Source of the DNA: Phytoseiulus persimilis
Taxonomy: Eukaryota; Arthropoda; Arachnida; Mesostigmata; Phytoseiidae
Assembly (NCBI GenBank): GCA_037576195.1
Contig: JAQZDE010000063.1
Span: 1 to 64,000, forward strand
Length of the DNA: 64,000 bases
Direction of reading: 5' to 3'
Positions 20,240-58,200 of this stretch are shown piece after piece. The stretch's first letter is position 1. Each line of letters begins with the position of its first letter. The notes beneath the pieces were generated by a model that ran no database searches, was not told where the DNA came from, and saw nothing but the letters and a program-made list of their open reading frames with translations. The position numbers were made by a program, and so were the translations under genes.

Positions 20240-22582
20240 TCAACTCTTTAAAAACTTCCCAACCAATCTCACAGTTGAAACACATGAGGACCACATGTTG
20301 TCGAAACTTTCACGAAGGGCTTTCGTAATTTGGACTTTCTGATTGTCGAATATCTGACTCACGTTGAAAGGCATCTCCTCAATTTTAGCGAGTTCAGCGA
20401 TTACAGTTTTTTTGGCTTCTTGACTTTGTACGGTGATCGCTATGCAGGAAAGCGCGAGGACGTATTGGGACATGATATTGATGAATCTCTGCAAGCCTGC
20501 AAGTGACTTCAATTCGAAATTCACCAAGGTGGCCGTCCTCTCGCCCAGCGTCTCAGCGATTCTGCATTCGTCGATGACCAGAGGGTAGATGAAGTACTCG
20601 AACGCATTGCTTAGGTCGTCTTTCAGCGCAGGATCTGTCGAAAGCTTCGCCAGGAGCTCGGCTTGGGCCGCCGCTCGCTTTTCGCTCGTTGCCGCCAAGA
20701 AATTCAGAACAGACCAGCGAAGGCGGAGCTCCTGTTTTTTTGCGTCGAGATTCGGGAAAATAGAGTGGTATCGTTTTGGTAAAACGCTCATATCACAGTT
20801 CTCCCTCAGCTGATCCCAAAGGATCAAAGGCACACTGGCAGCGGTTTCTTTGACTTCTCTCTGAGCCTTCGGACTTTGTAGCTTCTCGGTGATGCACATA
20901 TCGAGATTGAACATGGTTTTCGCGTTGGCCAACTCGTATGAATTGTCCAATCGTTCCCACAGCTCCTCCATTTCTTGGACCTTGAAGAAGGAACCAAACT
21001 TGTAACAGTTCACAATGCTGTCAGCGATGTCGCGCTGAGAATGCATGTGGAGTCCGATGAAGTTGCGGTAGTGTGGACGAGCAACCGCGAACGAGGATCT
21101 CTCCAAAACCGGCGTGAAAAAATATCCAAGACTCTCCAACTGCAAGTATTTGATATTCAATGAGGCGATCATAGACCTGGTCTCTTCTCCGGCGTTGATG
21201 GCACAGTAGCACCAGAGCAGGCGCAATTTCAACTTGAAACCGTTCGGTGACTTTTTCTGTGCTGCCTCCAGAAAGGAGATCATCTTCAGGAGAATTCCGT
21301 CATTGCCTCGTGTGAGGAAAACTTCCGCAGCCATATCAGCCGCAAGCTCGAGATAGCCGTCATTGGGGTTGGTGTCGGACGGTCGCTCGAGTTCGGGTCC
21401 TTCATCGTATTTATTGCACAGTTGGCTAATTAGCTCAAGTTGTTCTTCCTCACTTTTTGGCCCTCCGAACTCAAACTCGAGAATCATCCACGAGAGCGAT
21501 TCTTTGCAAGCAACTTTCGACAGTGTCTCAAACACGGACTTCTGCATTTCCGCGGATAATTCTCTGATCTGATACAGAAGATCTATTGTGCACCATATTT
21601 TCCCATCGAATCGCTTGTAGAAATCGACTAGTAGAGTTTCGACGACGTCAAATTGTTCGAGCCTCTTCCGTATCGAAATTTTATTCAGAATGGTCTCCCG
21701 TCGCTTGTCGTGATCCTTGGCTTCTTCCACGAGATCGAGGAGTTTGTTCGCGACGTCTTTGATGGACTCGCCCTTGAGTTTGGCCACTTCGAATCGTTTC
21801 TCCAGCCATGTATGATCGAGGCATTCACTTTTCTCAAACATAGCCTCGGTCTCCCGAGCCGCCTCCTCCCAAGCCTGCATTTTCGATAAAAGGAAATATT
21901 TCTCGTATGGGGGAAAATGCTGTTTCTTGATGAGAGCGTCCACCCTTTCGAGTGCCTCCTTGTACTTGGCTGCATCCCGATAGATCATGTACTCCAAGAA
22001 AGTTTCTGCGTCCGCACTCGGTTTCAATCGGTTCAACATTTTCTCCGCCAAGATATAACACATGGCTCTTTGGCGCTCATCCGACGCGTCTTTTGCACTG
22101 AGGTATTGATGCATCACAGCTGTATAGTAATAGGTCCGCTTATCGGTCAACTTGTACAGCTGCAAAGCGACGTTCTTGGCCTTCGTGCGTTCTTTCTCGC
22201 GCACATAGAGCTTGAAGAGGGAGTTGTGAACTTCCTCAGAAGGACACTTCTTGCAAGCGGCCTCGTACAGCGGAGCAACCTCATCCTGACGTCCGATCTC
22301 GTGGAGTGCCATCACCATGGGTGACAATGTCGCTTCCTCTGTGGGTTGACTTGAGATCAAAGCGTCTAGTACCGTTGCAGCCTCCGACCGGCGTCCCAGT
22401 TTTGAAAGCGCCAAAGCTTTCAGTGCATGCACGGTATCTCCCATTTTGCTGCCGTACTTCTTTATGATACGCTCGCATTCTTGTAGTGCACGTTTGTGAT
22501 CTCCAATGTCGAAAAAATCGTAGGCCCCTTTCAATCTCCGCTCCTCGAGAGCTGCGCGCTGCTCATCCTTTTTAGTGGCCAT
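20240..22582 (-). CDS. NAA25: N-alpha-acetyltransferase 25, NatB auxiliary subunit (intronless)
   Basis: NAA25 (MDM20) is the ribosome-anchoring scaffold of NatB. With NAA20 it acetylates nascent chains starting Met-Asp, Met-Glu, Met-Asn or Met-Gln, including actin and tropomyosin. The single 780-codon frame starts MATKKDEQRAALEERRLKGA and continues into tetratricopeptide-like helices (YDFFDIGDHKRALQECERI, DTVHALKALALSKLGR), typical of the family's N-terminal TPR part. It stays alpha-helical to the end. It is shorter than the human protein (about 970 aa), mostly in the C-terminal half. There is no intron in 2.3 kb, unlike most neighbours, so it may be an intron-loss or retroposed copy that replaced the original. 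The ATG is preceded by a stop in frame, which supports the start. Confidence 0.96.
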   Translation of the reverse strand: MATKKDEQRAALEERRLKGAYDFFDIGDHKRALQECERIIKKYGSKMGDTVHALKALALSKLGRRSEAATVLDALISSQPTEEATLSPMVMALHEIGRQDEVAPLYEAACKKCPSEEVHNSLFKLYVREKERTKAKNVALQLYKLTDKRTYYYTAVMHQYLSAKDASDERQRAMCYILAEKMLNRLKPSADAETFLEYMIYRDAAKYKEALERVDALIKKQHFPPYEKYFLLSKMQAWEEAARETEAMFEKSECLDHTWLEKRFEVAKLKGESIKDVANKLLDLVEEAKDHDKRRETILNKISIRKRLEQFDVVETLLVDFYKRFDGKIWCTIDLLYQIRELSAEMQKSVFETLSKVACKESLSWMILEFEFGGPKSEEEQLELISQLCNKYDEGPELERPSDTNPNDGYLELAADMAAEVFLTRGNDGILLKMISFLEAAQKKSPNGFKLKLRLLWCYCAINAGEETRSMIASLNIKYLQLESLGYFFTPVLERSSFAVARPHYRNFIGLHMHSQRDIADSIVNCYKFGSFFKVQEMEELWERLDNSYELANAKTMFNLDMCITEKLQSPKAQREVKETAASVPLILWDQLRENCDMSVLPKRYHSIFPNLDAKKQELRLRWSVLNFLAATSEKRAAAQAELLAKLSTDPALKDDLSNAFEYFIYPLVIDECRIAETLGERTATLVNFELKSLAGLQRFINIMSQYVLALSCIAITVQSQEAKKTVIAELAKIEEMPFNVSQIFDNQKVQITKALRESFDNMWSSCVSTVRLVGKFLKS

Positions 22583-26029: not shown

Positions 26030-26809
26030 GGCTCTTCCAACGGAACTGATGGATATCTACATGGTAGAAAAAATCTCTCGTACGCTAAAACAATGCCAGA
26101 ACTGAATTTTGACGGCCACATGAAGTTGATCAATGCATTCGCCAACTCACAGGAAGTGATTCAGAGAATGACCCTCTATCGGCTCGTTGCACCTCGTTGT
26201 AACTCAGTGTGAGTCGAGTTACGAAGAGAGGAATCGGCTCGATACTGTTCCTCTACTGGCAGATACCAATGGATGGTGTCTGTTATTCAGTCTGCGGCCG
26301 TGCTCCGGGTGCGCTGGTTGATCTGAGCAGACGACGCTCACGCCTCTCTTACTCTCATGTCAACGCTCTGTGAGCGATGAGTATCAGCTTGTTATTGTTT
26401 ACATGCTCCCCCTCCCCTCCCCGTTGCATTGCAAGCGGTCGCTTGTTTCTTGAGTTAATCTGTGATCTCTCAGGATTCCCAAGCTCTTCAGCGTGTTGTT
26501 TGATCACTCCGGAACTCTCGAGATCATTCCCCCTTGCGGAGCGTGATGGACCGTGCAAACGTTCTTCGATTCTCCAACGAGTGACAAAGGAAATGGGGAC
26601 ATCGAGTGCACTCAGCTGTTGAGAAGATCTAGCGACGCGGTATTACCGAACGGAGTCGTTTTGGCGACTGCCGTGTCACCATCATATGCTCCATCTGCAT
26701 GTGATCAACGCCAGAGGACAACTGGAGCCGAGCTGCAAACTGGCTGCGGATCCCCTCGTTTGAACATCGACGAGAGTTGTTCGCCGCGGGGAGAACTCTT
26801 GCACAAATC

Positions 26810-28312
26810 ATGGAAGACCTCATCAAAGATTTCACCGTGGTCGTTGGGTGTCGGAAACTACGGACGAACAGAGGTTGTTTAGAGAGACACTCGGACTACT
26901 TCAAAGCCATGTTCAGTTCCGGAATGAGAGAAAGCCTCACGAGCAGCGTCAAGCTTCAAAACGTAGACGAGGATCTCATGTGCCAGATCATCGAATTTTG
27001 CGAACGAGGGGTTCGCATTCGGGTATCCGAAAACAACGCGCTCCGCGTTCTCGCGGCGGGAATGATGCTTCAAATGGAAGCACTGAAGGGCAGTGCTGAG
27101 CAATTCCTTGTGCAGGGTTTGACTTTGGAGAATGTGTCTGACATGTTCAAAGCTGCGGATTTCTACGGCTCGTCTTTCCTTCGGAATGCTTGTGGCAAAT
27201 TCATCTGCTGGTCGCTCGAACAGCACGTCGACAGATTGGCTCCGGAGAACTTCGAGCTCGTGGAATTCATACTCCGAAGAGAATACTCACATTGGAACGA
27301 AGATCTCATGTTCAGGGCCGTCTGCTCTGTGATCCGAGGTCGCAGTGTTGACCAGGCGCGGGAGCTTTTCGACCTTCTCTATGCTCGCAACATCACGCTG
27401 AATAATGATGTTTTCAATTTGTATAGGAACGCTGGACTCGGTCTCGAAGGTTTCCGTGGAGACGGCAGAACGCTCGCTATAGTTCTGGACAACCGGGAGG
27501 CTTTCCTCCTTGATAGACGCTCGTCGAAGTTCTTGAAATTGACGGCTTTTCCCGTCCAAGTCGTGGGTTGTGGTCTCGTATCTCACCGACAACATTGGTA
27601 TGTCATCGGGGGCGAGAACCGTATAGGCCAAGGGAAATGGAACATGAGCGTGTACCGCTACGACTTCCTCAGGAATTCGTGGGAGCACTTCATCGATATG
27701 CGTGATTGTCGGAGATCGTTCGCCTGCTTCGTAACTGACAGCAAAATTTTCGTGATCGGAGGTTACGGGAAATTCCGTAAGAGCTTGGAAGGCGAACTGG
27801 CGGTCCTCGACCTGGAGACGCGTACTTGGACTTATGGAGAGCTAAGGGCTTCTCAGATGCATTCGTACGTAAATGGCAGGGCCAATCTGTTGTACAGTGA
27901 TAAGCATTTCTATTTGTTCGATAATGTGATTCAGAAGATCAGAGAAGAGTGCCTTGGAAAAGTGGTAGGAGAAGTGCTGGTCATCGAAAACTTCCCTCGA
28001 GAACCCATAAAGTGCTCCTTGCCCTTCAGACACGACGTGATAGTGATAACGAATCAGAATAACGTGTTCTTCTGCAACTTGACGACGAAATCAGCTAAGA
28101 AGCTAGAGTTGGAGAACACCTTGAATCCGAGACCTGATTTTTTCCACTGTAATCTGGTCGATCGTACGCTCTACAACATAAAAGCGCACAAAATCACCGA
28201 GTACCTGATCGACATCGAAGCTTTAACTCTGACAAAGATCAAAACATATCAAATGATTGATGAAACGAGTTACGAAAATGTTGGCGGATCATGTATAGTA
28301 CCATACTTCTGA
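26810..28312 (+). CDS. BTB-BACK-kelch protein (KLHL-like), intronless
   Basis: KLHL proteins usually act as substrate adaptors of CUL3 ubiquitin ligases. The 500-codon frame starts at ATG 26810, though the frame is open upstream to about 26700 with no ATG, so an extra 5' exon is possible. Residues 1-100 are a BTB fold (DFTVVVGCRKLRTNRGCLER, SDYFKAMFSSGMRES, LRVLAAGMMLQM). Residues 105-210 are a BACK domain (FKAADFYGSSFLRNACGKF, LAPENFELVEFILRREYSHW). The rest is a degenerate kelch propeller with the clearest blade at SFACFVTDSKIFVIGGYGKF followed by LAVLDLETRTW. Sequence divergence prevents assignment to a specific KLHL subfamily. Confidence 0.93.
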   Translation: MEDLIKDFTVVVGCRKLRTNRGCLERHSDYFKAMFSSGMRESLTSSVKLQNVDEDLMCQIIEFCERGVRIRVSENNALRVLAAGMMLQMEALKGSAEQFLVQGLTLENVSDMFKAADFYGSSFLRNACGKFICWSLEQHVDRLAPENFELVEFILRREYSHWNEDLMFRAVCSVIRGRSVDQARELFDLLYARNITLNNDVFNLYRNAGLGLEGFRGDGRTLAIVLDNREAFLLDRRSSKFLKLTAFPVQVVGCGLVSHRQHWYVIGGENRIGQGKWNMSVYRYDFLRNSWEHFIDMRDCRRSFACFVTDSKIFVIGGYGKFRKSLEGELAVLDLETRTWTYGELRASQMHSYVNGRANLLYSDKHFYLFDNVIQKIREECLGKVVGEVLVIENFPREPIKCSLPFRHDVIVITNQNNVFFCNLTTKSAKKLELENTLNPRPDFFHCNLVDRTLYNIKAHKITEYLIDIEALTLTKIKTYQMIDETSYENVGGSCIVPYF

Positions 28313-43208: not shown

Positions 43209-46200
43209 ATGTCCGGCAGCGCTTCCTCATCAAATGGCGTCGCCCGCAAGCTGAGGGTGAGCTTATTAGGTTCTCGACAGCGATTGCGAGCGGAGTCTGT
43301 CAACAAAACCAAAACGGAGCTCATATATGTTCGCACTTATTCGATTCGAAGACTTGCTTTTGAAGGTGGCATCGAGAAGACGGCTTTCGGACTCCGATTC
43401 ATCGGACGACAGTCTCATCGTGTCACGGGAGAAACGGATCAAAGTAGAGGAATCGAGTCAGTCATCGGACTCAGACAGTGAAGTGGAAACTCGGAGGCGG
43501 CGACGGAAACCAGCTGACGCTAAACCTGTCATAGCTAGCGAATCCGAGAGTGACTCCGGATCTCTAACCGATGGTTTGGCATGTCCAATTTGTCTTGGGA
43601 GGCTGTATGAGACGACCCTACAAGGTGAGAATCCAGGAGAAGATTCGGAGCGTTCTCACTTCAGATTGCCAGCAGATGTGTCGCACTTCGCCAGCAGGGA
43701 TTCAACAAGATAAACTCGGGAATCGTTCCCTCAATAGATGCCCCCATTGAGAGGATCGGTTAGGCTCCGCCTCGTTCCGAATCCAGTATGTGGAAAATCT
43801 CGAATGTATGTTTGATAACAGACCGCCTCCTACAGGTCGGCCCGAGTCCTGCGAGCACACTTTCTGCATCGAATGCATCACGGCATGGGGCAAAAACAAC
43901 TCAACTTGCCCCCTCTGCCGGAACGCTTTTTCCACGATCAAAGTCAGCCATCGAGGTAAATATCGGAACTAGATCTCTTGCGTTCCTGCACACATTCAGT
44001 GTCTCCACACAGGAGGCACCAGTGTTCGATGTCTCGGACCAAGCGAAGTCAAGTTTCATCTATCGCCAGGCGCCGTGTTGGAAGAATTGCCCGTGAAGAA
44101 AGTGGTACCCGAAGAAAACGAAGCGGACCAATTTCTCAACGATATTCGCTGTCTCGTATGTCACCAATCCGATCGGGAGGATACGCTGCTGCTCTGCGAC
44201 GAGTGTGACGACTCCTATCACTGTGCTTGCTTGAGCCCTCCTCTGTTGAGTGTTCCCGTCGGACAATGGTTCTGCCCTCGGTAAGCAGCCATCTAGGAGG
44301 CGAGGAGAGTTGCGTCAAAACTTCAGAATCGGGGGCCCGTAGTTGTTGGAGCTAAGCTAAATCCTTGGTCCTGCTGTTCCTTCCAGCTGTGACAGCCAAA
44401 ATGTAGACGTGGACGATGACGACGAAGATGCGTTCGCTGTGGACGAAAGCTATTTTCTTCACATCCCCCGTACGCGAGCAACTGAAAGAGTTCGCCGATC
44501 AGTTCAATCGACACGACGGACAGCGACCACCCGACGAAGCACTCCGTCCAGCACAAGGAGAGGGCGTAGGGGCACGCAACGGTCTTCCACAAAAAGACGC
44601 GCAACCACGGGGGGGAAACGCAGATCCACAGCCACAACACGGAAGAAGTCACGTAGGAAAACAACCCGCCGACGAAAAGGAGGTCGTAGATTGGCCATAC
44701 TCAGAAAAGCCTACGCTGCATCCACCGATCAGCAATGGCGCATCGCGAGATCTCTAGGGCTGTCAGATAGACTCATACACAAGCTGAACCGCAACAACGT
44801 TAGCTTTCCGGTTCTGTCAATTGACGAGCCCTCAACGAGCAGGGGGACGTCGTCCCGAGCGGAATCGTCTTCTCACCAGCGAGCGCTATCAGGCGTGGGT
44901 CTTGGCTTAACAATTTTCGGGAATGCAAACGACTACGAGCCTCATGACTCTAGCGAAGACGAGACAGTCCCGCCAAACCCGAAAGAGGGAGATCAGGCAG
45001 CTCCTAGCACAGCCTCCGGAGTCGACTTCCTGGGTGAGCTCCTCGAGAAACAGTCGGTGCTACTAGACAAAAAATCCGAGCTCAAAATGGATAGCCAGGG
45101 CACTCTCCGATTAGTGGGCGGAAGTTCATCCAGTTGTGAACCTGCGAAAGCATCGAGTCGGCGACGCTCAAGCGAAACTCAGTCTTCCACCGAAAAATCC
45201 CAAAGAAACGCTCAACCGCCGCCGAGAGCTGCCTCCAGTTCTCTTGAATATGACGTGCGTTACAAGCCACAACGAATTTCCCGCGTTGACGAGACCTGTA
45301 GAGCCGCAATTGTCGACACCATAGAAGATGTAGTGACGAACAGCCACGCACAGCGAGTGGAGCACGGATCGACCACGCACACGGGGCCGAAGGAGCCGAA
45401 GCGGGGCAAGTTTTCAAGGGTTCCGCACGGGAGGGAACCGCAGAACAGTATGGAAGAGGGGTCATTGAGAGAAACACCAGGTTGGATCAACTCCCTCAGG
45501 CTGACTGTGCCCACGGTCATCAACTCTCTGAGTATATTCCAAGATCTTGATGACGCGCAGCCTTCTTGTTCTTCCTCCCACTCGAGAAGCAATCATCGGC
45601 GCGTCGACGGCAAGTCCGGGGCTGTCAGGGTCAAAGAAGAGCCAATAGAGTACGATCAAGGCTCTGATGGACCAAATTATCGGACCCCTGATTTCAAGTC
45701 CGAGCGTTTCAGGGTGAAAGATGAGCCCAAAGAATATGATGAAGGCTCTGATGCACACAATCAACGGCACCGGAAGAAACACACTTGTGACGGTAACTCC
45801 GGGCGTAAGTTTCACCGCTTAAAATTCCCGAGCCTCGGAACAATCCATTGAGGAGAACATTGCGAGGCCGGAAGTCGAGCACCGAGCTTAGAATGACATG
45901 TTTCCACGTTTATTCCAGGCGATAAGGAAAAGGACCGATCGCACGATGAGAGAAGCTCAAGAAAAGACATGAGGAGTCCGACCACCGATCGAAGCCGGAA
46001 TTACAGAAGATCGCGAAGCAGAAGTCCGCGTATTATCAAAAGAGAACGATTTTCCAGTGAGAGAACGACAAGTCCGGCAAGAGGTTTGTCAGATCACAAG
46101 TCAAAGCACATCAGAAGCGGGAGTCGGGATCTACTGCATCAGAACGAGAATTCTGTTCGGTCTGTCAAGGAGGAGAGACGTTCCCCAGTCTCGACTCTCT

Positions 46201-47015
46201 CAACGGGAAGGCGTAACGAGTCGCTTGAACCCGGAATTAAGCCGTCAGCTGGTGAACGGTTGCAGCGAGAGACGCCATCTCATTCGGTCAGCGCTCCCAT
46301 AGCCGTTGATCTATCGAGGGTCAAGGTCGAACCTGTGGAATCCTCGACGGTCATTTCCGACCCTCCTCGGATGCTATCCCCAGCTTCAGACATTCTGACC
46401 AAGACAGACCCGAGTCCAGAAGTCGCAAGCTCTTCCAAAATACCTGCTAGGGTTGCTCCATTACTTCATGGGCTCTCGAACCAACGAGCTGATCAGTCTG
46501 ATGACTCTGGAGCGGTGAAAAGTGAGTTTGCTGGAAGCCTACCGACGATGGGCGCCGCAGAATCGGACACCGCACTGCCAATAGGATCAAATGATGTTCC
46601 AGTGACACAGGCGATTAGTAATCCGTCCCACATGGAGGGATACAGCAGTGGTATGGAATCTGAAGAGAGCTTGTCAGATGTCGAAGCAATGGTCCCTAGC
46701 GTGGTTGCTCAAGAAAAACCTGTCGTCAAGAATGAACCGCGGAAATACATGAAATACTTCGTCCCGAAAGAGAAGTTCAAGGATGCTGTCATAAAAGAAG
46801 TTGGGCCTTACTTGAAGAAATTCTACAAGAAACATCAAATATCGAAGGAAGATTACAAGGACATCTTTAAGAAGGTCATAAAAAAAGTTTGTACAGGCTC
46901 CTCTGAGAGGAAGCGCTTAGTTTGCACGAAGGCCATTCACAGACTTTGCCACACTTACGTGAAACGGGCGCGAATCCAGATCAAGTTGGACTGTAAATTC
47001 GGAGAAAGTGTCTGA
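43209..47015 (+). CDS. PHRF1: PHRF1: PHD and RING finger protein, full length
   Basis: PHRF1 is a nuclear RING ubiquitin ligase that reads chromatin through its PHD finger and binds phosphorylated RNA polymerase II tails through a C-terminal SRI-like domain. Exons are 43209-43256, 43366-43624, 43836-43955, 44070-44280, 44387-45804 and 45919-47015, all in phase, giving 1050 residues. An acidic/serine-rich head precedes the C3HC4 RING (residues 89-130: CPICLGRLYE, CEHTFCIEC, CPLC). The PHD finger (170-214: CLVCHQSDREDTLLLCDECD, WFCPRC) follows. Next come a long Arg/Lys-rich body (RRTATTRRSTPSSTRRGRR), SR/RS-type segments, and the C-terminal helices (about 961-1050: KFKDAVIKEVGPYLKKFYKK, SKEDYKDIFKKVIKKVC), which match the human C-terminus. 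It is the first of three tandem copies. Confidence 0.97.
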
Positions 47016-47099
47016 CTCGATTGTGCATAGGATGATGATATTCAATGTTTTGTTCATGAGGGAGAGGATGTATTATATGTGCTGAAAACGGATTTCACG

Positions 47100-47105
47100 A
47101 ATAAA
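47100..47105 (+). terminator. Polyadenylation signal of PHRF1
   Basis: AATAAA 85 bases past the TGA at 47013. Confidence 0.7.
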
Positions 47106-47279
47106 TGACGAGAGGAACTCAATTGATAATTGGTAAGGATTTTGGAACACCTCAGGCCTGTTGTCGCATGCCCCGCTCGCGAAACGTCCGCCGATCGCTC
47201 TGGAAACTCGACCTGAGGGAGCGAGCACCCTCCAGGAAGGAACGAAAGCGAAAGTTCTCCACGGCGGACGAGTAGTTTG

Positions 47280-47671
47280 AACTCTGAGATGTTCAAGAGA
47301 GTCCAGGTCTTCCGTTCGGCAAGCGGACCTACAGATGCGTTCCGGACATCAGACCGTGGCTCAGTCGCGATTTTGGAGATTTCACATACTACAAATGTCA
47401 AGTCCTCACCGGTCACGGTAGCTTCCAGACGTACCCCGCATTCATCAAGAAGACCCCGAGCCCAAAATGCATTTTCTGCAGCTCGGGCGAAGGAGATGAC
47501 GCCGAGGATACAGCGCTCGTACGCGAAATGCTGACATCGGAAAGTGCCTGGAACAGAATCTCAAGGAAGCTGGAATGCATCCTCAGAAAGAAAGACCATC
47601 TCATCAAGTTGAGGTCGCAGCGGCTGGGACTCGACACCACGTGGCCAGGACTAGCGCCCTTTGCAGCATAG
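47280..47671 (+). mobile_element. LINE fragment (R1/Jockey type), ORF2 C-terminus
   Basis: The frame ending TAG near 47669 encodes the end of a LINE ORF2. CVPDIRPWLSRDFGDFTYYK is followed by QVLTGHGSFQTYPAFIKK and CIFC, matching the VLTGHG.F..YL block and terminal zinc-knuckle start of R1/Jockey-clade elements. Upstream parts lie in other frames, and the rest of the element is missing. It sits immediately downstream of full-length PHRF1, between it and the first truncated copy. Confidence 0.85.
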
Positions 47672-47755
47672 GAGAGAATTAGCAATAAAGATGTCAGATA
47701 TTCGGAAATCTGAAGTAAGACCCCGATGGGGGACTTGCCTCGCGCCCGATTGCCG

Positions 47756-47813
47756 CGAGCCCGATTCCGCGAGCCCGAGTAAAGCGGTAGTCGGGCTCGC
47801 GGAATCGGGCTCG
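47756..47813. repeat. GC-rich perfect inverted repeat, 23-bp arms
   Basis: The left arm 47756-47778 and the right arm 47791-47813 are exact reverse complements (core CCGATTCCGCGAGCCCGA), with a 12-base loop. The left arm is preceded by a degenerate direct copy (GCGCCCGATTGCCGCGAG). It is close to the LINE end and inside the PHRF1 array. Confidence 0.95.
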
Positions 47814-47829
47814 AGGGAGGTAACCCCCC

Positions 47830-49048
47830 GATGACCGCGCGGAAGTAGTATAGAACGTGGAAGCTTCTCTTTCCTCGAGTGCCCAGCGGTCGCCGACGTG
47901 GAGGAGGGAGGTTTTAGTGGTGACACCACACTCCCGGGCTGACGGACCAATGGGTTCTATCCCCGGGACCCGGGGTTCAGTTTTCTTCCCATAATCTAAC
48001 CCACGAGTGAGAGGCAGATGAGGGCTCCCAGTGATAGCACATGTTCCTGATCTGCGGACGTAGGGCCTTGGATGGGGCCTCAACGGCCGGCTTCCCACGC
48101 GGACAGAAAACGGCCTTCATCTGAAGTCTTTTCAAATTAGTATTGACTTTGCACAGACCGTGAGCTGCACAGAGTTCATCCGTTGAAGTTTACCAGGTCT
48201 ATGCATATGAAACCGTATGACTCCGGTATATTGGGGTCATCGACTCTCAATCGGAATTCTCCTATCCGTGATTTCACCAAGGAGGATCCCGAAAGCATGA
48301 ACTCGAGAGATTCTTTAGGCGGCCTGTTTAGAAAGAAAAACATTCTGTAGACTACACCGTGAGCTTCAGGAAGAGAACAGATTGATTTGGTGCTGGGATA
48401 CTGGAATTCACGAGGAGGTGATGACGAACCTGGGTCAGAGGCGTTCGAGCTGCTTCGATCTTGAATCGAAGAACTGAGCCTCCAGTCAGAAGATGCATGG
48501 AACCGAATAATTTCCAAGGATTTTCTTTGAGTGAAACTATCGAGTATTCGGTTGAATATTGCTGGCCCACTGATACTGATTTGGAATTTGATGCTTAATC
48601 CTGAAGACCATTTGACGTACGTTCACACCATCGACTTCGCAAAATGAGCTCCGTATCGGAACACCTTCCCTCAAGGAATTAAGAAGATGCCCTTGACTCG
48701 ATATCGGCTTATAAGCCGTAGTTAAGTGGTCTGACCGGTTTGAGCCATCGGCGCGGATTCGCATGGGCATCTTGACATCGACCCAAGCGGGAAGACGCTG
48801 GATTTGTATCAAAGTAATGAGAGTTCTGCTCTTATGTGAAGCCTTCCGCGCCCGGTTGGAGCAAAGTTGTGACTAAAAAGAGTTGCAGTCTCGAATTGCT
48901 TATCGGCATCGAGGGATAATGAAGTAAGCGGCAGCAGAACATCGATATCCGCCTCCGACCGGTGTCGGAAGATCAAAATAATCGCTTGAAGTCTGTGCCG
49001 CCCACTAGCTTCATAGTTGGATTCATTCAATCCCGCGGGATACTCGTT
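47830..49048. other. No confident gene
   Basis: Minus-strand frames of 90-134 codons (48098-47694, 48517-48176, 49201-48809) carry no recognisable domain. The stretch is the spacer between PHRF1 and its first truncated copy. Confidence 0.45.
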
Positions 49049-50096
49049 ATGTCCGACAGCAGTATTTCGGTGACCCGTATCAGTCGCAAGCGGAAGGTGA
49101 GTCAGCCTTTTCCTTCTGCGTCCTGGTCGCTCAACGATTCGCAGGATCCGAGGAGGGACACACCCGCGGAACCTGGAGACTGATCTAAAAGAAATGCTCA
49201 CACCGAACAGGCCCGAGCCAGAGGTATGCCGCTAATGTCCGAGTCTTCAGAAGATAACCTGATCCCAAGAAGGTGTGTGAGACAACGTACCACTGGCCGA
49301 TCTTCAGATACGGATAGCGACTTTGCGACCGACACAAAATTCGTCTTGGAGAGTGACAGCGATAGTGATTCGGGATCCCATGAGAATGATCTCACGTGTC
49401 CCATCTGCCTAGGGAAACTAGAAGAAACTGCGTTCAAAGGTGTGTCTTCAGGAAGTTTCCTGTTCCGAACTGCGTTGAGAAACCGAGAACAGGTTGCACC
49501 TGTTACTTTTCATCGTTCCAGGACGTTCCGATTCGTGTGAGCATAGCTTCTGCGTCCAATGCATATTTGCATGGAGCAAAAACAACACTTCCTGCGCCTT
49601 GTGCCGTGAACCTTTCACGAGGATCTCGGTAATTCTCGGGGGTGAGTCGGCTTACAAGTGATTAACCATGCGCCGAACACTTTTCCCTTCGCGGTGACCG
49701 AATCGTGTTTCGAAATTCTGTCTTCGTTTTCTTGACGGAAGGATGCTCGAACTCTTATCTTTTGACGCTCCTCAGACGACCTAGTGGAAGAAATAGAGGT
49801 GCCGCAGGTCCTACCTGAAGCTTCCGAAACGGAGCTATTCTTCAACGACATCGTCTGTCTGCGGTGTTCACGCTCCGACCAAGAAGATACCTTGCTACTC
49901 TGCGACGGTTGTGATGATGCCTATCATTGTGCCTGTTTGGACCCTCCGCTCGTGGGTGTCCCAGTGGGCCAATGGTTCTGCCCCCGGTAAGCGAGAATGA
50001 GAAGGAAATCGGAGAGAACACTCCGGCGAAAAAATCTTCTGAAGATGGATTATCGGAATCACGCAGGACTTCTTCACGTCTTTCAGGTGTAGCTAG
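49049..50096 (+). CDS. Truncated PHRF1 paralogue B (RING-PHD only)
   Basis: Exons 49049-49096, 49211-49439, 49522-49641, 49776-49986 and a stub 50087-50096 give 205 residues. Exons 1, 3 and 4 have exactly the lengths of PHRF1 (48, 120 and 211 bases) and the same phases. The first exon starts MSDSSISVTRISRKRK. A Ser/Asp-rich head leads to RING CPICLGKLEETAF, CEHSFCVQC, CALC and PHD CLRCSRSDQEDTLLLCDGCD with DPPLVGVPVGQWFCPRC. All zinc ligands are present. The fifth exon completes the last PHD cysteine and stops after one more codon (RCS, TAG), so the basic body and SRI-like domain are absent. The protein could still act as a small RING-PHD ligase or a competitor of PHRF1. Confidence 0.92.
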
Positions 50097-50823
50097 CGAT
50101 TGATGACGCGCACGTTCCGAGGGAGCAGGTCGACTTGGTTTCTCATCTCTAGAAAATCAACGAATCGCTATAAAACCCAGTCCCAGGTTCTGTGACGGAA
50201 TTGTTGACTAATCAAAGCTTGAGTTAGGAACGTCTGACCCTGTCATAACACATGTACAATCTGAGTCCCTCGACATTTTCCACTGAACACGAGCGAGAAC
50301 AACCGGAATAAGATTCTTCCTCCAACATTCGTAAAACAATCGAATCTGGTCCGATTTTGAGCCTTGAAAGTACTGGAACCTTTTGAACGGTCTGGAATCT
50401 CCGAATATCACCGTTGACCGAGAAAGATTCGAGGCGTCCTCGGTAGCATGAAATGCTCTCATCTGCTTCTCCAAAAAACCCATCCCACTCTGACGAACGA
50501 GAACCGATTCTGTGCTCGGAACAAAATGTTATTGAATGAGTGATCAAATTCAAGATCGACCCCGCCTGGGAGTGGATCATCGATATCATAAACGATCAAG
50601 TTCAGAGGGAGCAGAGCTTGTCACATTCATCCTCATAATTTTGACTCGCCGGAATATTCTCTGCTCGATTCCGAGTCAGGAGGCGCAGACATTTCCTTTT
50701 TCTTATCTCCCTCGCGTGATAGAAAGTTGGTGTCTTGTTCGCCCGTGAGCTGGAATGCTCTGGACATCCCTGGGAAGAACGAGCCGCTCCGCAACAAACG
50801 TGGGCGTGATTTCGTCATTAAGC
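50097..50823. other. No gene seen between copy B and the next ORF
   Basis: Frames on the minus strand (50589-50208) are unsupported. I found no readable remnant of the basic PHRF1 body, which in the full-length gene follows the PHD exon directly. Confidence 0.4.
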
Positions 50824-51009
50824 ATGTCTTCAATCGAGCCCCAAGGGATTCTCGTCCTCACTGCTGTGCTCGCCGTTGCTCTCGGAGCAAGCGAGAGCGC
50901 CGTTGCCCTGGTGCCCAGCCAACGCGGAAACCAGGGAGACTTTGACGGATCGAGCGAACTCCAGAGAACCCTCTTACACACTTCTCACTGCGTCTGTCCT
51001 CCACAATAA
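50824..51009 (+). CDS. Small secreted-peptide ORF
   Basis: An ATG at 50824 starts a 61-codon frame with a convincing signal peptide (MSSIEPQGILVLTAVLAVAL then GASESAVA). A short polar mature part (LVPSQRGNQGDFDGSSEL) ends HTSHCVCPPQ, TAA. Only two cysteines close together (CVC) are present, so it may be the first exon of a longer protein or a tiny secreted peptide. It lies between PHRF1 copies B and C and is not related to them. Confidence 0.45.
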   Translation: MSSIEPQGILVLTAVLAVALGASESAVALVPSQRGNQGDFDGSSELQRTLLHTSHCVCPPQ

Positions 51010-51689
51010 CAAAGGCTTCTCCACATGAGAATCGAGCTTCTTCACCTGTTTGAGTTGCTCGGAAGATCATTACATAGGGAAAGGAGGAGGAAAGCCAGCG
51101 CACGTCACCAATCTGGGCGAGGTTTGGGTTGGAGGTATGTGAATGGGGCCACTCTCAAACTGGGAATCTACGCAGATTTGGGTTCTGAACGGGTGATTCA
51201 GACTCGAACTACAATCACCTGTGGGTCTGAATATGAATCATACGGGAAGATAGTTCCGACGGATTTCTCATTGCTGGACGAGTGATGCGCGGTACCACAG
51301 CTCAACGCTGGCTTAGTTGGTGGCTAAATAGTAGAGACGCGATACCACTGGACATGTCCATGTCCGTCTGGTGCTTGGGAGTCCGACAGAAATGTCCGAT
51401 CAGGGGAATCGGCTCAGGTCTCCATGATTTTGCCGGTAGTGTCCGATTTTTGGGTGTATTTTGAGTGTCAGAACAGAGCTCAGCGTTCGGAGTCTGTTAT
51501 TCAAGAGGGAATCGAGGGTTCTCACTGAAACGAAAAGAACTGTGAGAAATATAACTGTTTTATTCCCGCAGCCACGAATCTGAGGATATTAATCTGTTTC
51601 TCATGTGATGTAGAGAAAGACCAAGCCTCTTCTCATCACGAAATACGGTGAATCTTGAGTCATCCGTAGTGATCTCCTGTCTGATCCGT

Positions 51690-51965
51690 GTCCGGTTGTT
51701 GAATGAAATAATGATCGGTTATCCTCTGTGTTTCTGATCCGTCTCATCCGTCAGTTTGTCCGTTTGTCTTTCTGTCTCTCCGGCCGGCTCAATGGTCTAT
51801 CGGACCATACTTCTCTAGAGTTCATAGAGATGACCCCGAGATCGTTCTGACAATACTTTCCGGGGATTAGGGAGATGATTCCGGGGTTGATCTGACCCTA
51901 CTATTCGGGGTCCTCAGAGGAGATCCCGAGGTCGATTTGGCAATATTACGTTAGTCTATAGACGC
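51690..51965 (-). repeat. Diverged relative of the 17.7-kb minisatellite, opposite orientation
   Basis: Read on the minus strand, 51960-51800 contains three to four units with spacing similar to the 17703-18049 array (AGTATGGTC, GGGTCAGATCAACCCCGGAA, TATTGTCAGAACGATCTCGG). Beyond them, 51790-51742 holds GACAAACGGACAAACTGACG, recalling GAACAGACAAACTTACAGAC after the 17.7-kb array. Both loci therefore seem to carry the same composite repeat. Confidence 0.5.
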
Positions 51966-52157
51966 GCTTCCGTGGGCGACCTGACGTTTACGAGCGTCTA
52001 CGAGTGCTTTGGGGACCGTCTACGAGAGAACGTCCGGGAAGCTTGTACCCACTTCAAAGGTGGGTCTTCAGAAGCACCCGAAGAAGTGAGTCAGTATTGA
52101 TTTTGAGAAGCTTATGCGAAGTCCAAGAGAAGGCCATCAGAAACGGCCGGAGAAACG

Positions 52158-52547
52158 ATGAAAAGATTCAATGTCGATTTCGAAAACTCAACGCGGAAAC
52201 GACGATACGAGCTGCCGGGACATACGTTGAAGCGATTCAACATCATAGCGAACCTGGAGCGCAACCCACGAGAAGGGCTCCAGAAACAGCGAAATACTCT
52301 TTTTCATTTGCTACGATATATCAGTGAATTTCGATCCATAACGAACGAATTGCAACCCAGAGAAAGAACGACAAGTACCGAGAAGCCTCAAATATACCGT
52401 ATCCTCTCCAGGACAAGGGCAGTACTTCAATTGTCTCAACCCTCTGCAGTGAAGCACTTCTATTCGAGGGAGCACTTTTATTGGAGAGGGCACTTCTATC
52501 ATTTCACCGGCCTGAGAGGTACAGCTGCCGGAGTAGGAGTACGATGA
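52158..52547 (+). CDS. Possible exon, basic protein, unrecognised
   Basis: A 129-codon frame starts MKRFNVDFENSTRKRRYELP and stays basic and helical (LQKQRNTLFHLLRYISEFRS). Alternative frames are also open, and there is no domain match, so support is weak. The far end (HFYSREHFYWRGHFYHF) has a short tandem repeat. Confidence 0.25.
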   Translation: MKRFNVDFENSTRKRRYELPGHTLKRFNIIANLERNPREGLQKQRNTLFHLLRYISEFRSITNELQPRERTTSTEKPQIYRILSRTRAVLQLSQPSAVKHFYSREHFYWRGHFYHFTGLRGTAAGVGVR

Positions 52548-52700
52548 GAACCCACAACAGCCGATTCAGCCGACAAACGAGCTCAACGAGCAGTTTCGGA
52601 AGGATTGAGCGGCAACTCCATACTCTTCTTCATCTCGGATGTGTCGTCCAGCTTCGTCATCTTTACAAGTCTCGATTCTGAGAGATTTAGAATTCTATAA

Positions 52701-53069
52701 ATGCTTCACAACAATTCGGCATCTGCTTCCTCAAAGAATACTATCGCGGATCCACCCTCTGCCAGCTCGTCGCCGGCATCGAACTCGCTGGAATCCATGC
52801 CTCCGATTCCCTTCAGAGAGGCATCTTGATGCGGACAATATGCAGCCGTCACGTCGGGAGCACAGTATCTTGCCATCTTCGGAGCCGTCGAGAGCGACTT
52901 TGACACCACAGTGTTCGACAGATTTTTCAATCAGGTCGTCCGGGAGCTCATTGCAGGAGCTCGCGATCTAGTTCCGAGTAGACCTCCATGGACGAGAGCG
53001 CGGGATTCCCTCCTGCGACTCGTCACCTTGAAGCATCCATTCTCGACTCAGGAGTCGTTCCTCGAATGA
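52701..53069 (+). CDS. 122-codon reading frame with one in-frame UGA
   Basis: An ATG at 52701 opens a Ser/Ala/Pro-rich segment (SASASSKNTIADPPSASSSP), interrupted at codon 43 by TGA (52827-52829). The same frame continues for 79 codons of ordered-looking sequence (CGQYAAVTSGAQYLAIFGAV, FDRFFNQVVRELIAGARDLV) to TGA 53067. The second half could instead be an exon starting after the CAG at about 52848. No domain is recognised. Options are a nonsense mutation, stop readthrough, a selenocysteine codon (no SECIS element seen by eye), or an undetected splice. Confidence 0.4.
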
Positions 53070-53720
53070 TGCCGAGGAAGGCCAGCGCGCCCCGTCTACC
53101 CCCCACCTCATAACAAGGTTCGCGAACCCTTGGAATACATGAATGTCTTCGAAAGTTATCAATGTTGACCGATCGTACTCTTCTCGAACTGACAACTATA
53201 AAGTGAGGCAACCTCGAACATGCACAGCGAATCGAGAAGATCCCTGAGAAGAGTCTGATCGGGGGCAGCGAACGACGAAGCTGGCTGTTTCCTTGGATAC
53301 GCGCTCTAAATGCTCTTGTCGGTGAAATCCCGTCCAGTGCGAACTTCGATCGTATGCAAGTCGGCGTTCGCCCCGACGCATGAACATCCGCGCTCGGCGC
53401 TCTTTCCCTTTACGTGCACGGTCAGTGCAGTAGCGTTAAGCAGATGTTTTCGTCTTCAGTCGTTTCGTTTTGAATGGTGTCGGCGGCGCGCTCGGAAGTC
53501 CCGCTCCTCATCAACGGCTCAATCACAGGTTTTTACTTACGCGCACGGCCCATCTACTACGAACATCAAATCTATAACCGGCGGTGACTTCGAACAACGA
53601 CGACCAAACTCTCCCAGTTCCTGCTTCAATGATGAGTTCCTGAGAAACTTGGGGGTCGGCTGGAGCTGCATTTCCTAACGGATAGCGCGAGAGGCCGCAG
53701 TTTTGTTCGGATCTTCCCTC

Positions 53721-55224
53721 ATGTCGGAGAGCGAGTCCCCATCGAGTGTTATCGGTCGCAAACGGCGGGTGAGTTGGCCTAAAAATATTAACTCCAAATC
53801 TTTCACTACGGTGAGTGAATTCTGCAGATTCCGAATTCTTTTGGACCCACATCAGTTATCCGCGCTCCTCTGGCGATTTTTCCATTCATTTCTCGTGAGG
53901 GATGATGCCGTTTCGAAGTTCTCTCTCTCCCCCCCCTCCTCCCTTCGACCTTTTTGTCTTGAGAGCTAGATAGCATTCCGCAAGAGTGAAATCTTGTGTT
54001 ACAAGTGAAAGACCAGTTTGGCGCTCTATACGCCTGTGTTCCACAGAGAGCCGAGGTACTATGAGCAAAATAACGGTCGGGAGTACCTACACCAAATTTC
54101 GTCCCCTCCTTTTAGCCCAACTTGACGGAGCTGTCAACGGAATCCGAAGGTACAGATGGGAGTCCTGTCGTTCCACAGAGCCGAAAGGCGAGAAAACGAG
54201 TCGTCGCTACATCTTCCGACTCGGGAAGTGAGGTGGAAAGTGGACGGCGTCGTAGAAAAGCGTCACGGAGGGTTATATTGACCGATTCCGAGGACGATTC
54301 AGAATCTCCAAGAGAGGGAGCTGTATGCCCAATCTGTTTGGGGAGAATGTATGAATCTGCTTTGCGAGGTTTGTAGATCTCAGAATTTACTTGAGGCTTC
54401 TTCTCTTCCCTCCTGGCCGCTCCCCGCCCTGAGCGGAGTCACCCGATATCGTAGAGCTCCCTAGCTCTAAAATCAACCTTGGAAGTACGCTCCAGCAAGC
54501 TCGGCGACGGAGCGTCGGCCGGTGAGTATAATCGTGAAATATCTCCCTTTTCTTTCAGGGCGTCCTGATTCGTGTGCGCACACGTTCTGCTTCGAATGCA
54601 TTAGAACTTGGAGCAAGAAGTCTTCGACCTGCGTTTTGTGTCGGGTTCCGTTCACGAAAGTGGAAGTTTTGCTCCGAGGTCAGTGCATCGTTAGAACTGA
54701 GTGAAGCCGCCGAGAGGGTCTCTATACCTCCATCTTCCAGGAAAAATGTTACAAGTGGAGATCACTCCCGATCTTTCGTACAGATGAAGTGCTGGAAGAG
54801 TTGCCAGTGAAGGAAGTTTCACTCGGAGAGGACGAGACGATGGTTCAGCCCGCTTTCGTTTTGTGCTATGCCTGCCGGAACTACGACAATGGAGATTCCA
54901 CATTATTTTGCGACGGCTGTGGCGCAACCTATCATTGTGACTGCTTGGATCCGCCTCTTCCGAATGCTCCACCAGGTATCTGGCGCTGTTCGTGGTGAGT
55001 GCTCCGCTCGAGTCCAAAGTTCAATTCCAGGGAATCCGATTCCCTCTCTCGTTTTCCGACGCCCCCTCCGTGTTCCGCGAAATAAAACTTGAAACGACTG
55101 TTTCAGTTGCGAGCTCGAGAGCCCAGAGAGTGATGACGATCTGTACGAGCCGGACGATAGCCTTCCCTGGTTTTCAGACAGTGGGAGCTCAGACGACGAA
55201 GACATCGACGATTTCTCCAATTGA
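53721..55224 (+). CDS. Truncated PHRF1 paralogue C (RING-PHD with acidic tail)
   Basis: Exons 53721-53768, 54116-54368, 54559-54678, 54784-54994 and 55107-55224 give 249 residues. Exons 1, 3 and 4 again measure 48, 120 and 211 bases. The start is MSESESPSSVIGRKRR. The RING is CPICLGRMYE, CAHTFCFEC, CVLC. The PHD is more diverged (CYACRNYDNGDSTLFCDGCG, YHCDC, then IWRCSCC instead of WFCPRC), but the ligand pattern is kept. Donors of exons 2 and 3 are weaker (GTTTGT, GTCAGT). Exon 5 encodes a 39-residue acidic tail (SPESDDDLYEPDDSLPWF) ending DDFSN, TGA, in place of the basic body and SRI-like domain. The tail is charged oppositely to that of full-length PHRF1. Confidence 0.93.
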
Positions 55225-58200
55225 GGCGGCGAGTCGCGGTTCCCAAGAGAAGACCCCGTAGTCCACGGCGAGCAGCTTGAGTAAACCAGAGTTGAAAGAA
55301 CGGGACGTCAAAGGGCATAACGAAGCGATATATTCTCTCCAATCTCCGCATTAGGAATAGGCTGAAAACATCCGCTCTCTCGTTAATTCGATGCATCGGG
55401 ACATGACGTGAAGCGCGGCTTCCAAAAACGACTGAAGATATTTAGACTTTACTTTTATACTGGATCCACACAGAGTCCGCCACCGTTATCTTGAGGAAGA
55501 ATCCGTTTTGTCTATGACCTCTTTCCCCGAGAACTTTTCTTCCTCAAGATTTGAACTCACACATGTTTTAACAAGTGAAGGAAGTCGGCTACTGGGTCGC
55601 TTCCCTCACCACAGATCCTGCAGAAGTTGGAGAATTCCTGAACGGTGCATTCTACGGAAGCTTCATAAGTCGATCATTTGCGCATATGCCTCTTCCAGAG
55701 ATCAGCGAATGTGCAGAAAACGAGCTTCCTAGCCGATTGGTTCTGTGAGATTTACCTGTCAAAGTTGCAAGTTCATGGATATTGGAGACTGTTGACGAAA
55801 TGAGGAATCGAATAAAGATCTCAAGGATTCCGAGAGGAGTCGTAGCCTGTTGTCTTGGCATGTGCCGATCACTCTCGAGAGCCTCAAGGCCTGATGGGCA
55901 TTCGAATTCAAGGCTACATTAATAAGATCCTTCGTGGCCCGAGCTGCTCCGCCCGATGAGTGAGTGAATTATTCCCATGCTCACCCATGTTTCCGTGCAT
56001 GAATTCGTCAGACAAGTGTACCGCATGACATTGAGAAGGGATGTGAATTACGAAACACTCATGTCAGCCCTACTCACTCCCATTCGGATATCATTCGTTA
56101 TTCCGTCACCGCGTAGTGGAGTTCCGATCCAAACTCTTTTCGTCCCATTCCACATTATACGGACTGCGCTTGGGCGCTCTTGCTCCCACAGTTCGAGGAT
56201 ACTCCTCCGAGTCGGAGTGGAATCTTACCTGGATTCCCGATCCAGTCCGCTTCCCGCGAAATTCAGACGGGAATAGTGTAATGAAATCCATTGCTTGGGC
56301 AGATCGAATGCATAGCATGCAAGGAAATTCACTCAGACTGTTCTTGGGATGCCCACAGACTGTCAGGCTATTTGTTTTTCCTTTCGAAGAGGGAGAGGTT
56401 CGAGGGCGAACAGCGGGAGCGTCGAGGCTTCATGTCTTGCCGAGCTTTGTTTTCGAGACCGGGTGCTGCAAAAGCTGAGAACTCACACCTGAACCTTGAC
56501 CCGATTCGGTTGAAAATCTCAAATATATTGGCTTCTCGTGATTTGCTCCGCTTCGCCGCCCTGCTGAGAGAGAAACACTGGGTCAAGGTCTCTCTAACTA
56601 CGACTGCGGGAATTGGGTGTGGTGATGTCAATTATTACTTATCGGACTGAACATGAAGGATTACACACGTCGACCTTGACCATAAGCGCTTTGACGCCTA
56701 GATAAGCTCGCTTGTTATTCACGAACCGTTGGCCTTGAACGAGATGTTTCTTTTTTTCCCCCGTCGTTTACTGCCCTGATCTCTGCGTCCTACCCCCGCC
56801 GTTTTCTAACACGCTGGTGGACTTTCCGATCTGGTCCACAGCGAGAATCATGAGCTGACACAGAGCCTCATCGAGTCGCTCTCGCTGTTTCACGAGCGGT
56901 GTGAACACTAGCGATGCGAGTCAACTTGTCCTCCCACAAAGTTCCTCTCGTGTGAGGGTCCACGGCTGAACTGACGGCACAAATTTCGAAAGGGTGCCCA
57001 GGTCGAGAATGTCAAGAACTCTCCACGACCCGAAACTGGACACCTCCCTGAGAGTTATTTTGAAATCTAGGTCGACCGCACGGAAAGGAGCCAAGGCTGA
57101 AACCATGGTCACAAACCAGAGCCCACCATGGTTTGGATAACTATTCCCGGGCAGAGAACTTGAGTTCTAGCGAGATCCCCAAGTCGGATCCGGCGAGAAT
57201 GAATCGGATACAACGAATACACTATACGTTGAGGCGGGTACGCGGGAACTCCTGCCTGAAGCAGCCGTTTATGAGAAGCTCTCTCACTCGCGATGCCGAG
57301 GAAGACTTCGATACCTGATATTCGACATCACGCACTTCCGGGACTCCGCCAGGGACGTCCACCCATACCAGAACGCCAGCCTAGGGACCGCATCAGGCGA
57401 TCGGCTCGTCGGCACACACGGTCCCGATCCGTTAACGGGGAGAAAATCTCTCCTACCGCACTGACCCGAAAGGACGGGGCTTTCTAAAACAGGTCAGTAA
57501 ACTCCACCTAGGGGTGCGGCGTGCGAAGCAGCTCATACGAGAATGGATTCTTTCTAGGCCAAGCCAGAAGGGGCCCGTTGAGCAGTTGCAAAACTGTCGA
57601 ACCCATCGACGAACCGGTTGGTCGGCGCGCCTCAGTTTCGACGGCTCACGTTACAACGGATCTGTACTATTAGAATCGAATCCTCATGTATGAAGGAGAT
57701 CCTCCTCAGGCGTCGATTTTGAGTTTTATCACTGTTCCCATTACCTGTGCATCGCGGGGAGCTCTCGGTGAGCCCGAAACTGGAGCACTTGGTTTCGTGA
57801 ATCGAGACTATGCAGTGCGAACAGTCCCGAGGCGGACGCCTATCTCTCTCTCTCGGAACGAATTGAGGAGCAGAAGGAATGTAAGGGAGCCTCAACTTCA
57901 CCCAATCCGAGCCGCGCCGAAGCTTGGCGCCCAGACAGGTTCCAGCAGCGATTTATGATATATCTGAGCAGGAAGAGATGCGATTTCAGAGCCGTTGATT
58001 TATTCGCTGTTTGCTCCTCGGTTTCAAACTACGGACTATTCCATGCGACCGATGAGATGCTCTCTGAGACTCCGCATCGAAAGATAAAATTTAGTCGGAT
58101 CGAGAGCTCTTATGCGGATCGTGGTAGATGTTTCCTGGAGCTCGGACTCGACCAAAATCGCCTTGGGGCTTTGACCTCTCCGAGAGGAATCCGATTCGAC

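Follow-up and report, generated by a model that had tools for sequence, protein, structure and literature searches.

A local array in Phytoseiulus persimilis: one full-length PHRF1-type gene with two shortened RING-PHD paralogues

PHRF1 is a single protein in which a ubiquitin ligase is combined with a histone reader and with a domain that docks on RNA polymerase II. We describe here a local array in Phytoseiulus persimilis in which a gene of this type (A) is followed on the same strand by two shortened RING-PHD genes (B and C). The array lies in a stretch of 64,000 nucleotides, hereafter the window (GenBank assembly GCA_037576195.1, contig JAQZDE010000063.1, positions 1 to 64,000 of the forward strand). 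To our knowledge, PHRF1 is one gene; in the fly it is CG2926. No report of tandem PHRF1 copies was found among the papers listed from the openly accessible literature, which was covered mainly through titles and the starts of abstracts, most subscription journals lying outside its scope.

According to the accessible text of one report, human PHRF1 carries RING, PHD and SRI domains, its binding to Rpb1 is abolished when the SRI domain is removed, and the SRI domain is needed to raise ZEB1, which mutants in the ligase and the PHD finger could still do (PMC7392320). The histone mark that the protein reads is disputed in the accessible portions of two further reports. A PHRF1 "(RP)" construct, which we take as RING-PHD (the abbreviation list of the source gives no definition), bound H3 peptides with no K4 preference on domain arrays, a K4me0 preference on peptide arrays and, in an assay of greater sensitivity, a preference for K9me3 over K4me0 (PMC6979384), whereas another group found H3K36me2/3 to be bound through the PHD finger (PMC4650548). 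The budding-yeast protein Asr1, which the accessible text of PMC7392320 names as the orthologue of PHRF1, is a short RING-PHD ubiquitin ligase that retains a C-terminal CTD-binding domain (PMC7392320, PMC12270679).

Gene A resembles human PHRF1, as described in that accessible text (PMC7392320), in having a RING and then a PHD finger near the N terminus and a putative SRI-like domain at the C terminus. B and C, in contrast, lack the body and the SRI domain. They are like Asr1 in being short RING-PHD proteins but unlike it in having no CTD-binding domain, since B stops just one residue beyond its PHD finger and C closes with an acidic tail of 37 residues (16 D/E, no K/R). From the sequence, we put at about two in three the probability that B and C are mini-PHRF1 ligases, old and kept by selection, that have been released from RNA polymerase II, the reader face being kept in B and altered in C. 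If so, the trio would be a natural separation-of-function set, in which PHRF1 functions could be separated with no need to design mutants; if B and C proved unexpressed, or recent in relatives, the array would be an ordinary local gene duplication.

Gene structures and domain content

The earlier note had described three same-strand genes with a common N-terminal plan, consisting of a first exon of 48 bases, then a Ser/Asp-rich exon whose end falls inside the RING, and RING and PHD exons of 120 and 211 bases, all in the same phases, and the splice models bear this plan out (Table 1). The modeled exons measure 48/259/120/211/1418/1097 bases in A, 48/229/120/211/10 in B and 48/253/120/211/118 in C; introns 1 to 4 lie at homologous positions with phases 0, 1, 1 and 2 in all three genes, and all introns have GT donors and AG acceptors. 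One amendment concerns the PHD exon of A, for which a second usable in-frame acceptor at 44013 would give 268 bases and 19 more residues between the RING and the PHD finger (44013-44069), so that 211 is the length matching B and C and one of two options. The stop codon of A ends at 47015 and is followed by an AATAAA at 47100. The end of B at 50096 holds if the acceptor at 50087 is used: that acceptor supplies the last PHD cysteine, followed by a serine and the stop, and a read-through without this splice meets a stop before the last PHD cysteine.

Both the RING and the PHD finger exceeded the curated Pfam cut-offs in all three proteins (in A, 35.2 bits for PF13639, followed by 40.5 bits for PF00628). 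When A was used as a tblastn query against 82 kb, made up of the window and the next 18 kb of the contig, the PHD exon of B was matched at an E value of 8e-27, and C at 4e-25. All 8 RING and all 8 PHD zinc ligands are retained in each of the three genes, as are the Ile, Trp and Arg positions that we take to be usually needed for work with an E2. The last RING ligand is a cysteine in A, B and C, and an aspartate in human PHRF1.

The order of parts in A is a Ser/Asp-rich N terminus, the RING, the PHD finger, an acidic and then very basic region, an RS-rich body and the C-terminal domain. The basic region (residues 241-345, with 38 K/R and 3 D/E in 105 residues) is absent from B and C, and RS stretches are present in the translation of exon 6; the body presumably resembles that of human PHRF1. 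That the basic/RS body and the SRI-like domain belong to A only, as had been proposed, agrees with the tblastn result, in which residues 215-1050 of A gave nothing better than an E value of 0.35 elsewhere in the 82 kb. B and C carry a RING and a PHD finger on the exon structure of A, and the body and SRI-like domain are absent from their models and were not found downstream. By its predicted architecture, then, A is a PHRF1-type gene, and B and C are, on the same grounds, its paralogues and not full members of the PHRF1 architecture. Shared exon structure, Pfam and tblastn all agree with a local array of one full gene and two shortened paralogues.

Two short-motif observations concern the same proteins. 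Residues 41-1043 of A hold 11 loose psi-K-x-E/D matches, 6 of them VK.E, and none occurs in B or C; we take this pattern to be SUMO-site-like. In the Ser/Asp-rich N terminus of B, residues 48-51 (49304-49315) read SDTD, A has one SDT with no acid after it, and C has none. The motif in B is like the SDTE through which, according to the accessible part of one report, human PHRF1 binds NBS1 (PMC4650548).

Age, constraint and divergence of B and C

Across the 127-codon RING-PHD core, A and B have 78 residues in common, A and C have 65 and B and C have 60. The proportions of synonymous differences (pS) in the core are 0.71 (A-B), 0.82 (A-C) and 0.72 (B-C), and those of nonsynonymous differences (pN) are 0.22, 0.30 and 0.34. 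Because synonymous sites have nearly saturated, the two short genes are old. Pairwise comparison of the upstream regions, introns and downstream regions revealed no convincing likeness, the best match being 20 bases long (E = 0.029). In neutral simulations, a rough guide only, frames stayed open at 0.25 substitutions per site in 22 of 2,000 runs for the first 214 codons of A, 38 of 2,000 for B and 5 of 2,000 for C; at 0.5 substitutions per site, the counts fell to 3, 2 and 1, and at 1.0 to none of 2,000 for each gene. With open frames, complete zinc ligands and protein constraint that has lasted in the core, B and C do not have the look of decay in their sequences, which suggests that both genes work and are not debris.

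Residues changed in a single copy were distributed differently among the three proteins. In the RING, A has 3, B has 8 and C has 6; in the linker, the numbers are 5, 7 and 7; and in the PHD finger, they are 2, 0 and 15. The excess for C and the shortage for B in the PHD finger stand out (Fisher's test, p = 0.004 and p = 0.003). The PHD finger of B has 36 of 45 residues as in A (pN 0.127, pS 0.75), and that of C has 21 of 45, its zinc ligands retained. Given that 12 of 15 fourfold sites have changed between the A and B PHD fingers while 36 of 45 residues are the same, protein constraint rather than recent conversion keeps these two fingers alike. Gene conversion was considered as a source of the likeness and rejected, PHD synonymous sites being as changed as those of the RING (pS 0.75 and 0.76).

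The PHD finger of B aligned with KDM5-type fingers (7klo, 2mny and 2miq) over residues 4-49 of the 50 given, although the finger is all that B has in common with KDM5-type proteins, B having no demethylase part. It matches these readers through EDTLLLCDGCDDAYH; C has GDSTLFCDGCGATYH at the same place and differs from B in the acidic stretch. By these alignments, binding of H3 peptides is predicted for B and would be altered in C.

We propose that tandem duplication of a PHRF1-type gene, at the DNA level because the introns are retained, gave rise to the three paralogues. A would keep the RING E3 ligase, the PHD histone reader, the basic/RS body and the C-terminal SRI-like domain, the last of these a predicted binder of the phosphorylated RNA polymerase II tail. 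B and C, old and selectively maintained, would keep only the Ser/Asp-rich N terminus, the RING and the PHD finger, and would most likely be active ubiquitin ligases guided by histones alone and untied from the transcribing polymerase; ubiquitin transfer with an E2 is predicted for all three genes from their intact RING zinc ligands. B would read the same H3 tail state as A, and C, with its altered reader and acidic tail, would ubiquitylate in another chromatin or protein context. For this species, the picture of histone-guided ligases without a polymerase tether is drawn by analogy. A fuller version, in which the targeting inputs of PHRF1 are split by gene, with A taking histones and RNA polymerase II, B the same histone mark alone and C a ligase with a re-tooled reader, is offered tentatively, and we would not bet on it. 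The subfunctionalisation raised in the earlier note is supported in part, in that the divergence of B and that of C fall in different domains.

Copy number and rival explanations

RING-PHD protein queries from A, C and B were searched against the six-frame translation of the 181-Mb assembly, the search scoring its best candidates alone (all 40, 28 and 32 of them, respectively). The A query returned 36 matches at E ≤ 1, including 7 on the 150-kb contig that carries the window; the C query returned 14 at E ≤ 0.001, with 6 on that contig; and the B query returned 15 at E ≤ 0.001, again with 6. A RING and a PHD finger together were found at only three places among these best-scored candidates, namely, A, B and C, so that the copy number is a lower bound; the remaining matches were to one finger type each, judged by position. 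A DNA search of the assembly with A gave three matches, which were A itself and two stretches of B.

The C-terminal domain of A had one other genome match at E ≤ 1, in a separate RS-rich gene on contig C39. The protein encoded there scores 31.8 bits with PF23030, the sole above-cut-off match to this family listed in the genome, and we read it as being of the SCAF1/SCAF11 type. It would share its C-terminal domain family with A, but unlike A it has no RING or PHD match listed on its contig, and it is therefore not a fourth RING-PHD copy.

That the trio might be an assembly artefact or an alternative haplotype is very improbable and largely refuted, even though the contig is small beside scaffolds of tens of megabases. 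DNA identity among the copies is only 63-71% over aligned exons, and the protein cores are 47-61% identical, with synonymous sites near saturation, so that by the tests made the copies are not an artefact. The assembly contains no second copy of A, nor, by DNA search, of an NAA25-like (NatB auxiliary-subunit) gene on the contig; because both genes are single, the contig does not look like a spare haplotype, and that explanation was rejected for the two genes tried.

A greater but still small probability attaches to B and C being decaying or unexpressed partial duplicates whose frames are open through recency or luck. Both are truncated, C has changed more than A, dispersed repeats occupy the A-B and B-C spacers, and B has no poly(A) signal close behind it. 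Recency, however, sits badly with synonymous sites near saturation, and luck with the persistence in both genes of open frames, of splice sites and of all 16 zinc ligands, as well as with a PHD finger in B at pN 0.127 against pS 0.75. Somewhat more probable than decay, though also unlikely, is that B and C are dominant-negative regulators that hold PHRF1 chromatin sites or substrates while being unable to act on polymerase-linked targets. The presence of the RING and reader fingers with the C-terminal domain gone, and the close likeness of the B and A PHD fingers, would suit such a role. The RINGs of B and C, though, retain all their zinc ligands and the presumed E2-contact residues and so do not appear catalytically dead by sequence; of the dominant-negative action suggested in the earlier note, the form that works through a dead RING is thus not supported, and B and C may compete for substrate or chromatin.

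Several points weigh against our preferred interpretation of B and C as maintained ligases released from the polymerase. The last exon of B is placed from a single acceptor and codes over only 10 bases; past B, the nearest AATAAA or ATTAAA is at 55081, nearly 5 kb away, and the first such signal past the stop of C lies at 55811, 587 bases downstream. In the neutral simulations, the models are flattered by an exon choice that favours open frames, and the Fisher tests on the PHD singletons of B and C were picked after the counts had been seen. The higher number of core singletons in C than in A (28 versus 10, p = 0.005) also fits relaxed constraint on the C PHD finger, and the differences between B and C (p = 0.066) and between A and B (p = 0.42) were not significant. 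The SRI-like domain of A scored 21.7 bits with PF23030 (E = 2.9e-4), short of the curated cut-off of 27; folded alone by AlphaFold2, it gave a weak model of three helices (pLDDT 61), given no weight here, with which Foldseek found no match in the Protein Data Bank (PDB) at E ≤ 0.001 (best E, 1.3), and a phmmer search of the PDB with the domain gave nothing useful (best E, 0.41). The histone and polymerase steps lean on human homologues whose reports disagree, and for expression, as for ligase activity, histone specificity, lost polymerase binding and the division of labour, we infer what the trio does from its sequence.

Within the interpretation of B and C as maintained ligases, we also weighed how they arose. 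It is slightly short of an even chance that they are 5' partial duplications, running from the promoter to the start of exon 5, rather than full copies that lost their 3' half. No remnant of exons 5 and 6 of A, that is, of its body, was found behind B or C by tblastn or blastn, a result that is uninformative in that neutral sequence is unalignable between the copies: introns and upstream regions are equally unalignable, so that unconstrained remnants would be gone anyway and the two histories are indistinguishable here.

Spacers and neighbouring sequence

Coordinates of the three genes and of the other features are given in Table 1.

Table 1. Features of the array, its surroundings and the putative SCAF1/SCAF11-type gene
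Feature	Positions	Strand	Basis and details
Gene A, full-length PHRF1 type	43209..47015	+	Splice-aware model; 6 exons, 1050 aa
Exons of A	43209-43256, 43366-43624, 43836-43955, 44070-44280, 44387-45804, 45919-47015	+	
RING exon of A	43836..43955	+	Splice model, repeat-family comparison; 120 bases
PHD exon of A	44070..44280	+	Splice model, repeat-family comparison; 211 bases
Region of A behind the PHD: acidic patch, residues 215-240; strongly basic part, residues 241-345	44391..44783	+	Composition count
SRI-like domain at the C terminus of A, final 93 codons ahead of the stop	46734..47012	+	Pfam PF23030 SCAF11-like_C, below cut-off
Gene B, mini-PHRF1	49049..50096	+	Splice-aware model, Pfam; 5 exons, 205 aa
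Exons of B	49049-49096, 49211-49439, 49522-49641, 49776-49986, 50087-50096	+	
RING exon of B	49522..49641	+	Splice model, repeat-family comparison; 120 bases
PHD exon of B	49776..49986	+	Splice model; 211 bases
Gene C, mini-PHRF1	53721..55224	+	Splice-aware model, Pfam; 5 exons, 249 aa
Exons of C	53721-53768, 54116-54368, 54559-54678, 54784-54994, 55107-55224	+	
RING exon of C	54559..54678	+	Splice model, repeat-family comparison; 120 bases
PHD exon of C	54784..54994	+	Splice model; 211 bases
Dispersed repeat in the A-B spacer	47317..47967	+	Genome search
NAA25-like long single-exon frame	20240-22582	-	Reading frame, DNA search
RS-rich gene with PF23030	L038 8618-10000 and about L039 77-210 (C39)		Genome search, Pfam

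A BTB-kelch reading frame lies on the plus strand at 26777-28312, and an Rfam scan of the 64-kb window at gathering thresholds gave no matches. The B-C spacer contains dispersed repeat pieces at 51794-53043; with 40 of 107 candidates scored, they have at least 44 matches apart from the self-match (E ≤ 1e-10). For the repeat in the A-B spacer, the scoring of 40 of 135 candidates gave at least 76 further matched pieces elsewhere (E ≤ 1e-10). In many of its other copies, the pieces that flank about 47729-47826 abut, and the roughly 98 extra bases present here, which carry inverted CGCGAGCCCGA-like repeats, resemble a small insertion of the foldback kind.

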